64,000 nt of DNA, from assembly GCA_037138755.1 (NCBI GenBank), contig JBAXHT010000001.1, forward strand, positions 1,831,805-1,895,804. Reading direction: 5' to 3'. The DNA comes from Armatimonadota bacterium (lineage in GTDB: Bacteria; Armatimonadota; Fimbriimonadia; Fimbriimonadales; Fimbriimonadaceae). Of the stretch, positions 461 to 2,643 are shown piece after piece (within the stretch, counting starts at the first letter, position 1; each line of letters opens with the position of its first letter). Under the pieces are notes generated by a model. It was not told the DNA's origin, did no database searches, and saw nothing but the letters and a program-made list of their open reading frames with translations. Position numbers and translations under genes: made by a program.

Positions 461-475
461 TACAATAGTGGCGCA
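461..475 (+). promoter_or_regulatory. -10-like TACAAT directly upstream of prmC
   Basis: TACAAT at 461-466 is followed by 8 nt and the ATG at 475. No Shine-Dalgarno sequence lies between them. This geometry predicts transcription starting at or next to the start codon, so a leaderless mRNA. Confidence 0.4.
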
Positions 476-1992
476 TGACCCTTGGCGATTGGATTCCTGC
501 GGCAACCCAACGGCTCGAACAAGCTGGAATCGCCTCGCCTCGCCTCGAAGCCCAGCTACTAGCCGCCCATGTGCTGCTCGTCGACCGCACTTACATCCTC
601 ACCCATCCAGAAGCAGAATTCAACGAACTGGCCGGCGAAACGCTGCTTCAAAGAAGAGAGGCCCAAGAGCCTCTCGCCTATATCCTTGGCTACCGCGAGT
701 TCTACGGCCGAAAATTCCGAGTCACCCCTTCTGTGCTCATCCCTCGCCAAGAAACTGAGCTACTAATTGAAGAAGCCCTGCAGCTCTCCCCTGGAACGCG
801 GACGCCCCCGTCTGCCCCGCGACCGAAGGGAGGCGTCACCCAACATTCTTCCAACTCCCAACCTCCAACTTCCAACTCTCCCACTAGAGTCCTCGACATC
901 GGCACCGGCTCCGGCTGCATCGCGATCACCCTAAAACTCGAACGCCCTGAATGGGATGTCTGGGCCGTCGACATCAGCGGAGCCGCTCTCCAAGTCGCCC
1001 GCGAAAACGCCGAAACCCTCGGTGCCGAGATCACCTTCCGCCACTCCGACCTCTTCTCCGGACTCGAGGGCGAAAAGTTCGACCTAATCCTCTCCAACCC
1101 CCCCTACATCGGAGTCGAAGAACCCCTCCCGGATGAGATCAAGAACCACGAACCCCCCACCGCCCTCTTCGCCGACAACCAGGGCCTCAAAATCTACCAA
1201 CAGCTAGCCGCCACCTACCGCGATTATCTAACTGAGGAGGGAACAATCATCCTTGAAATAGGTCAAACCCAGGGCAAAGCCGTCGCCGAGTTGTTCAACG
1301 GCCAAATCCTAAAGGACCTCAGCGGCAACGACCGGGCCGTCGCAAGGTACCCCCGGCGTCTCGCCGGGAAATCCGACGGCCCGGCAAGTGGAGAATCTGA
1401 CTTCCACCCCGGACAAGGATTCATCACAAAGAAAGAGGGAGATCGCCTCCCCCACTGGACCCAAGATTCTGCCATCTACCACGTCACGTTCCGACTCGCC
1501 GACAGCCTCCCCAAGAAGGTGCTCCAAGAAATGCTTGAGGAACGAGAGCGACTATCGAGGATCAAAAAACTCTCCCCCGACTCCAAACGTGCACTTGACT
1601 ACCTCTACTCCGAACGAATAGAGGACTACCTCGACAGCGGTGCCGGGGAATGTCTCATGAAACAACCCAATATTGCCGACCTCGTTGCTGAGGCGATCCG
1701 CCACTTCCAAGGGGAACGCTATGAACTCCATGCGTGGTGCGTCATGCCAAATCATGTACATCTTCTCATCGAGCCGCTCCAGCCTCACGAGCTTCCCGCA
1801 ATCTTGCACAGCCTCAAATCATTCTCATCACACGCCATAAACAAGCACTTAAGTCGAAGTGGCGCGCGTTGGATGCCTGAATACTACGACCACATCATCC
1901 GTACCGAACCAGCTTATCGCAGGGTGATTGAGTACATCCAGCAGAACCCTCGGAAAGCTGGTCTACCCGGCTGGAAATGGGTAGCTCCCTGA
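475..1992 (+). CDS. prmC: PrmC release-factor methyltransferase fused in frame to a RAYT (Y1) transposase
   Basis: A 505-residue chimera. Residues 1 to about 292 are PrmC (N5-glutamine methyltransferase of peptide release factors): N-terminal helical domain, SAM motif VLDIGTGSG and catalytic NPPYIG. An extra Pro/Ser/Thr/Asn-rich segment of about 35 residues sits just before the SAM motif and is encoded by a hairpin repeat. PrmC ends at about DRAVARY, where its stop should be. The frame then continues through a REP palindrome into a RAYT/TnpA_REP domain with the HUH motif (MPNHVHLLIEP) and the Y1 region (VIEYIQQNPRKAGL). No ATG, GTG or TTG lies in frame between the junction and the first RAYT strand, so the transposase can only be made as a fusion. 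def and fmt follow. Whether both halves are active is unknown. Confidence 0.9.
   Translation: MTLGDWIPAATQRLEQAGIASPRLEAQLLAAHVLLVDRTYILTHPEAEFNELAGETLLQRREAQEPLAYILGYREFYGRKFRVTPSVLIPRQETELLIEEALQLSPGTRTPPSAPRPKGGVTQHSSNSQPPTSNSPTRVLDIGTGSGCIAITLKLERPEWDVWAVDISGAALQVARENAETLGAEITFRHSDLFSGLEGEKFDLILSNPPYIGVEEPLPDEIKNHEPPTALFADNQGLKIYQQLAATYRDYLTEEGTIILEIGQTQGKAVAELFNGQILKDLSGNDRAVARYPRRLAGKSDGPASGESDFHPGQGFITKKEGDRLPHWTQDSAIYHVTFRLADSLPKKVLQEMLEERERLSRIKKLSPDSKRALDYLYSERIEDYLDSGAGECLMKQPNIADLVAEAIRHFQGERYELHAWCVMPNHVHLLIEPLQPHELPAILHSLKSFSSHAINKHLSRSGARWMPEYYDHIIRTEPAYRRVIEYIQQNPRKAGLPGWKWVAP
785..816 (+). repeat. Hairpin repeat family B, copy 1 (inside prmC)
   Basis: Contains CTGGAACGCGGACG, CCCC and CGTCTGC; the arms GCGGACG/CGTCTGC pair with one G-T. 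A second copy at 11787-11813 has changes on both sides of the stem. The copy is translated inside the PrmC linker and is followed by a CCAACTCCCAACCTCCAAC-type tract. Confidence 0.6.
1347..1374 (+). repeat. REP palindrome at the PrmC/RAYT junction
   Basis: Palindrome CCCGGCG-TCT-CGCCGGG at 1352-1368, with the flanks GTAC and AAATCC shared with the copy at 1995-2022 (one mismatch over 28 nt). It is translated as part of the fusion. Such palindromes are the usual substrates of the RAYT family. Confidence 0.75.
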
Positions 1993-1994
1993 AA

Positions 1995-2042
1995 GTACCC
2001 CCGGCGTCCCGCCGGGAAATCCTGGCGAGACACCAGGGATAC
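1995..2042 (+). repeat. REPIN: two inverted REP elements just after the RAYT stop
   Basis: The first half has arms CCCGGCG-TCC-CGCCGGG (2000-2016). After an AAAT spacer comes a second, inverted half with CCTGG and CCAGG arms (2021-2037), ending GGATAC. Read as its complement, the second half matches the first at most positions of 22 nt. It starts 2 nt after the RAYT stop codon, so REPs bracket the RAYT segment. Confidence 0.75.
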
Positions 2043-2094
2043 CTTCTCAGCTCACCTTGGCGGAATATTCGCCCTATCTGCCAAAATAAAGCTG

Positions 2095-2643
2095 ATGGAA
2101 ATCGTGGTTCCAGATGAGTTCAAGCACCTCTACGTCAAAACCGTAGAGCGCCCTGTCGTCAAAATCCCCGATCCCGTCCTCCGAAAAATCGCCGCCGATG
2201 TCGCCGTAGACAAGAAAGGCATCACCAAGAAGACAAACTTTCTCATCGATGAAATGATGCGCATCATGCGCAAAGCTAACGGAGTCGGCCTTGCTGCCCC
2301 GCAGGTTGGGATTAGCCAGCGTCTGTTCGTCATGGCCCCGCTCGATTTCCGCCCAACCGCCCTGATCAATCCCAAAATCATCAAAGCCGAAGGCGAGCAG
2401 ATCGGCCAAGAAGGCTGCCTCAGCATTCCCGGCCTCTATGGCGACGTCAAACGCTACGACTACATCGAAGTCGAAGCCATGGACCGAAAGGGAAGGGAAC
2501 TTGTTTTTGAACTCGAAGGAATGCCCGCCCGGGTCGCCCAACACGAGATCGACCACCTCGACGGAGTACTGTTCATTGACAAAGTCGACCCTGCAACTCT
2601 CCACTGGGAAGACCCTGAATTACATTCCCGGGACGAGGATTAA
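2095..2643 (+). CDS. def: Peptide deformylase
   Basis: A 182-residue metalloenzyme that removes the formyl group from nascent N-terminal methionine. The three family motifs are intact: GVGLAAPQVG, EGCLSIPG (Cys metal ligand) and HEIDHLDG (two His ligands and the catalytic Glu). Length is typical. fmt follows after 3 nt, the common def-fmt pair that couples addition and removal of the formyl group. An upstream REPIN separates it from prmC-RAYT. Confidence 0.95.
   Translation: MEIVVPDEFKHLYVKTVERPVVKIPDPVLRKIAADVAVDKKGITKKTNFLIDEMMRIMRKANGVGLAAPQVGISQRLFVMAPLDFRPTALINPKIIKAEGEQIGQEGCLSIPGLYGDVKRYDYIEVEAMDRKGRELVFELEGMPARVAQHEIDHLDGVLFIDKVDPATLHWEDPELHSRDED

Follow-up and report, generated by a model that had tools for sequence, protein, structure and literature searches.

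A REP-associated tyrosine transposase without a standard start codon of its own lies in frame at the 3' end of prmC in an Armatimonadota bacterium

How does the gene for a release-factor glutamine methyltransferase come to end in a transposase, and does such a fusion reflect an accident, a new function of the host protein or a way of life of the mobile element? The question is raised by a 64,000-nucleotide stretch of an Armatimonadota genome (hereafter 'the window'), in which a single open reading frame on the plus strand (475-1992, ATG to TGA) encodes 505 amino acids without interruption. A first-pass annotation had proposed that the PrmC frame runs without a stop through a translated REP into a complete REP-associated tyrosine transposase (RAYT). 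This was borne out by the translation and by matches to both TIGR03534 and Y1_Tnp: the 505 codons comprise, in this order, a full PrmC, a translated REP hairpin, a disordered linker (AF2 pLDDT below 50 over aa 301-343) and a RAYT with intact HUH and tyrosine motifs (Table 1).

Table 1 Features of the prmC-RAYT locus, in window coordinates.
Feature	Position	Strand	Evidence or state
prmC part of the fusion (release-factor Gln methyltransferase)	475..1345	+	TIGR03534, AF2, only prmC of the genome
Lineage-specific in-frame insert inside PrmC	779..889	+	Alignment break against G001; low AF2 pLDDT
Upstream REP hairpin, read as RYPRRLAGKS; stands in for the last PrmC residues and stop	1346..1374	+	REP search
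Linker from REP to RAYT core, no standard in-frame start codon	1375..1413	+	Codon scan; AF2
RAYT domain with its own stop codon	1414..1992	+	Y1_Tnp, motifs, fold match
HUH motif PNHVH	1747-1761	+	Intact
Catalytic Tyr codon	1933-1935	+	Intact
Downstream REPIN (REP 1995-2022 and inverted REP 2024-2043)	1995..2043	+	REP search
def (peptide deformylase by sequence), next gene, neighbour also in G001	2095..2643	+	ORF, alignment

Residues 25-289 of the fusion match TIGR03534 with 260 bits (cut-off 199), PF17827 (PrmC_N) is recognised as well, and both the SAM motif DIGTGSGC and the NPPY motif (in LSNPPYIG) are intact. The AF2 model of this part mostly exceeds a pLDDT of 90; values of about 48 were obtained for aa 111-130, within the region of an insert (about PGTRTPPSAPRPKGGVTQHSSNSQPPTSNSPT) that is absent from the congener G001, whose alignment breaks at 779/889. 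The insert is of low complexity, contains a GC-rich hairpin with one other weak copy in the genome and separates the N-terminal from the methyltransferase part of PrmC. Loss of PrmC has severe consequences in E. coli, and since a genome search found prmC in single copy, the fused gene must supply the PrmC function if that function is needed.

The C-terminal part is recognised by Pfam Y1_Tnp (40 bits, gathering cut-off 23, aa 413-491) and, slightly below the 80-bit cut-off, by NF047646 REP_Tyr_transpos (78.9 bits). It combines the Y1 transposase domain, the HUH motif and the one catalytic tyrosine that characterise RAYTs, and the residues concerned (H114, H116 and Y174 in RAYT numbering) are conserved across 22 relatives. 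Modelling of the entire fusion gave a poor RAYT structure, a probable consequence of PrmC-only and RAYT-only rows having been mixed by MAFFT in the fusion-wide alignment; refolded alone, the domain reached a pLDDT of 82. The best fold match of this model is TnpA_REP in complex with a REP hairpin (PDB 4er8; Foldseek 2.3e-8, HMM 1.8e-8). REP hairpins flank the gene on both sides (1347-1374 and the REPIN at 1995-2043), as expected of a REPtron, and the REP begins with GGTAC or GGTAT, compared to the GTAG-type tetranucleotide in the definition of RAYTs. No second RAYT of the fused type occurs in the genome; the three other RAYTs (29-38% identical) are standalone genes.

A codon scan found no in-frame ATG, GTG or TTG between the C-terminus of PrmC and the RAYT core. 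Going back from the LPHW motif, the first such codon is a TTG 52 codons away, still within PrmC, while the next ones after it, GTG at 1519 and ATG at 1531, lie past the first strand of the core; the earlier claim that no internal standard start could yield the RAYT alone thus stands. Non-standard initiation, for example from an ATC at 1423, is possible. An ATG or GTG with a Shine-Dalgarno-like site occurs within 45 codons in 2 of 27 embedded RAYTs compared to 8 of 28 standalone ones.

What the locus may have looked like before is suggested by G001, which belongs to the same genus and shares 91% identity across the catalytic part of PrmC. Its prmC has a stop of its own (GNDRVVVACLI-stop, where the window reads GNDRAVARYPRR...) and is followed by def and fmt in the gene order of the window, without a RAYT. 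The alignment of the two genomes is lost a few bases ahead of the REP and picks up again shortly before def, and the spacer between prmC and def has diverged. The displacement of the PrmC stop by the RAYT, which the first-pass annotation had assumed, is thus confirmed by an unfused relative. Since the congener gene ends about four codons past the breakpoint and lacks a RAYT, we conclude that prmC received a REP-RAYT-REPIN unit at its 3' end; going by this alignment, the insertion would have cost PrmC its stop and roughly four C-terminal residues. Neither another PrmC-RAYT among 61 near genomes nor an insertion in prmC of a close relative was found.

The REP GTACCCCCGGCGTCYCGCCGGGAAATCC is present at 1347-1374 and again at 1995-2022, with 0 occurrences expected by chance. 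Matching REPs occur at five other loci of this genome, all without a RAYT, and three of them are paired REPINs. One REPIN is translated in frame within an acyl-CoA dehydrogenase (GTPGVSPGSETRRDAGD; L189 1042-1095, G000:C2:6841-6894) whose orthologue in G001 has none, and three other REP loci lie about 1-11 nt past stop codons. In the nine congeners searched, this REP type is absent. Because the REPs have spread here and are missing from all nine congeners, the unit resembles a REPtron of recent arrival, and the initial description of the transposase as 'domesticated' is not supported. On the simplest view, the dispersed REPINs were moved by the RAYT now carried by PrmC, or by its unit shortly before capture. 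One of the three REPs behind stop codons lies about 11 nt after that of prfA (L192 1073-1092, G000:C1:535472-535491), which encodes RF1, a substrate of PrmC; we take this link as a coincidence. Among the REP matches with three mismatches, a second repeated motif, GGGAYCGCRGGCGTCTCGCC, was noted (G000:C1:717153, 1196797 and 1874509; G000:C2:16586 and 106105; G000:C3:372959), possibly another REP family.

Is the prmC fusion a singular event? A survey of 291 genomes of the phylum, many of them metagenome assemblies, returned 26 RAYT matches at E <= 1e-52, and 16 of these close relatives reside in open frames of more than 350 aa. By our count, a host is recognisable in 15 of the 16, for G141 only via sequence common to two others. 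The hosts within the phylum include CarB, MetH, a zinc dehydrogenase, a GH38 glycosidase, a type ISP methylase, DUF1156 proteins and a TetR regulator; LeuRS, AlaRS, FabZ, PglX, isochorismate synthase and salicylyl-CoA hydroxylase were found in other phyla. Two cases are weak, namely a 735-aa GH4 frame, in which the RAYT is N-terminal to a gene that perhaps has its own start, and a 393-aa frame of G089 without a host domain. In the clade of the window's RAYT, whose members all come from one family and which has an SH-aLRT value of 93 without being a starred branch, all seven members are embedded, in PrmC, CarB (three), GH38 (two) and a dehydrogenase, at mid-gene as well as end positions. No out-of-frame copies were seen within this clade, with the proviso that in-frame cases are easier to notice. 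The wider subfamily is only partly embedded, its other members being standalone: mapped on the tree, the embedded and standalone labels require 11 changes compared to 22.7 for shuffled labels, and embedding is therefore clustered, yet has been switched several times. Among the embedded elements, 24 of 29 are flanked by shared sequences of at least 13 nt, as are 14 of 16 among the standalone ones, compared to 10% of mismatched pairs. The subfamily is repeatedly found in frame within host ORFs, some of them essential, and the prmC fusion is one case among them. Two very long frames (L081 43-4164 and L085 1-4185) carry a RAYT core together with several translated REPs, and an apparent second RAYT N-terminus (KSRGELPHL...) behind the core.

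The LeuRS hosts allow a view on selection. In three genomes, the RAYT-bearing LeuRS is the sole LeuRS above the cut-off, and its profile halts at 363, 364 and 278 and is resumed behind the RAYT at 365, 370 and 290, skipping 1, 5 and 11 positions, respectively. Insertion sites were read from these profile positions, since a MAFFT alignment of the three proteins forced two different sites together. Two of the three, the Akkermansiaceae L037 and L044, carry the same RAYT at a shared LeuRS site, and their copies differ with a dN of 0.14 at saturated synonymous sites (pS 0.74), compared to a dN of 0.16 and 0.12 for the LeuRS flanks. In this pair, amino-acid change in the embedded RAYT is as restrained as in LeuRS itself, and upkeep of an open frame alone would not hold the RAYT residues so closely. 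For CarB, three genomes have the RAYT at one site, across which the profile continues within 0-3 positions. One RAYT at the CarB site (L113) is very distant (27% identity to the window's RAYT), suggesting that a tolerant site was used more than once. In three genomes of the window's family (G020, G023 and G025), CarB is split into two frames covering profile positions of about 1-550 and 550-1052, the first of which bears the RAYT.

We regard it as probable that a start-less REPtron inserted in frame into the 3' end of prmC, yielding one chain of PrmC, linker and RAYT with 505 residues, and that it belongs to a subfamily with a habit of settling in host ORFs. According to this model, a unit of REP, start-less RAYT and REPIN would insert about four codons before the prmC stop, by single-stranded DNA transposition or REP-directed insertion, and in-frame events would survive. 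Translation from the prmC start would then give one protein, in which a working PrmC is connected by a flexible, REP-encoded linker to a RAYT that folds independently as HUH/Y1 nuclease, recognises REP hairpins and spreads them via single-stranded DNA. The host gene would provide transcription and translation of the RAYT, and other members of the subfamily would settle in the same manner in host ORFs, essential ones included, without splicing. Expression as one chain, activity of the fused PrmC and of the RAYT nuclease, and a benefit of embedding for persistence of the element are all presumed here. With somewhat less conviction, and only slightly in favour, we extend this reading to an entire branch of RAYTs with an 'in-protein' life: start-less, often stop-less, in frame and with REPs as translated linkers, they would parallel inteins, though without splicing, and would be under purifying selection, with essential single-copy hosts securing expression and hindering loss.

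A normal REP-RAYT unit at the end of prmC could also have been joined to it by accidental loss of the stop, the RAYT then being made from a non-standard start or being a dying remnant. REPs are indeed common at gene 3' ends (PMC3733652), several in this genome follow stop codons by 1-11 nt and standalone RAYT relatives exist. We nevertheless hold such a chance read-through to be unlikely given 52 codons without ATG, GTG or TTG before LPHW, an intact frame with its catalytic residues and a clade whose members are all embedded, spread over four different genes and over mid-gene and end positions. Even less probable is a domesticated fusion, in which the RAYT was recruited for a new role of PrmC, for example to couple REP binding to translation termination. 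It would suit the union with an essential-type gene and the constraint on LeuRS-embedded RAYTs, but a second PrmC-RAYT is missing from the 61 near genomes, the hosts of the relatives are functionally unrelated and REPs of the same type have spread in the genome. That an assembly error joined the two genes is scarcely credible: the genome is a draft of 20 contigs, but the order prmC, REP, RAYT, REPIN and def is continuous within a 2.0-Mb contig with the neighbours known from G001, and like embedding occurs in a one-contig genome of 5.2 Mb (G008, dehydrogenase host) and in the isolate Lamprocystis purpurea DSM 4197 (L039).

If a RAYT lineage indeed lives in frame in aminoacyl-tRNA synthetases, carbamoyl-phosphate synthase, PrmC and further hosts across several phyla, with restrained protein change, this would be a new strategy of mobile genes, and the embedded RAYTs would be a natural experiment on the domain size that essential enzymes tolerate. 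Our search of open-access papers turned up no description of a complete RAYT in frame in a host gene. One classification of TnpA-Y1 proteins (PMC6006769) dropped unexpectedly long ones, which it took for gene fusions or annotation errors, and surveys may thus have filtered out embedded RAYTs.

Among known systems, the RAYT REPtrons around E. coli TnpA_REP (PDB 4er8) are alike in the HUH-Y1 fold and motifs, the flanking REP hairpins and the REPINs elsewhere in the genome; however, descriptions of known RAYTs present them as standalone genes, whereas the fused one lacks a standard start, forms the C-terminal domain of PrmC and has relatives that lie within host ORFs. Intragenic REPs and Rickettsia palindromic elements are palindromes translated in frame in functional proteins, including those of Opitutus terrae (PMC3733652), but these inserts span about 20-80 residues without an enzyme, while here the transposase itself is embedded. 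Inteins likewise sit in frame in essential conserved genes and bring a DNA-cutting domain. In contrast to the RAYT insert, which is expected to remain in the mature protein, they splice, and no Hint/intein family is among the Pfam matches of the window ORF or the 25 of 42 NCBIfam families listed. IStrons contain an IS element, in many cases of the IS200/IS605 type, that does no harm within genes because RNA splicing removes the IStron (PMC4227781), whereas the frame of the fused RAYT simply continues. We file the prmC RAYT as a RAYT with a new variant of lifestyle rather than as a new class of element.
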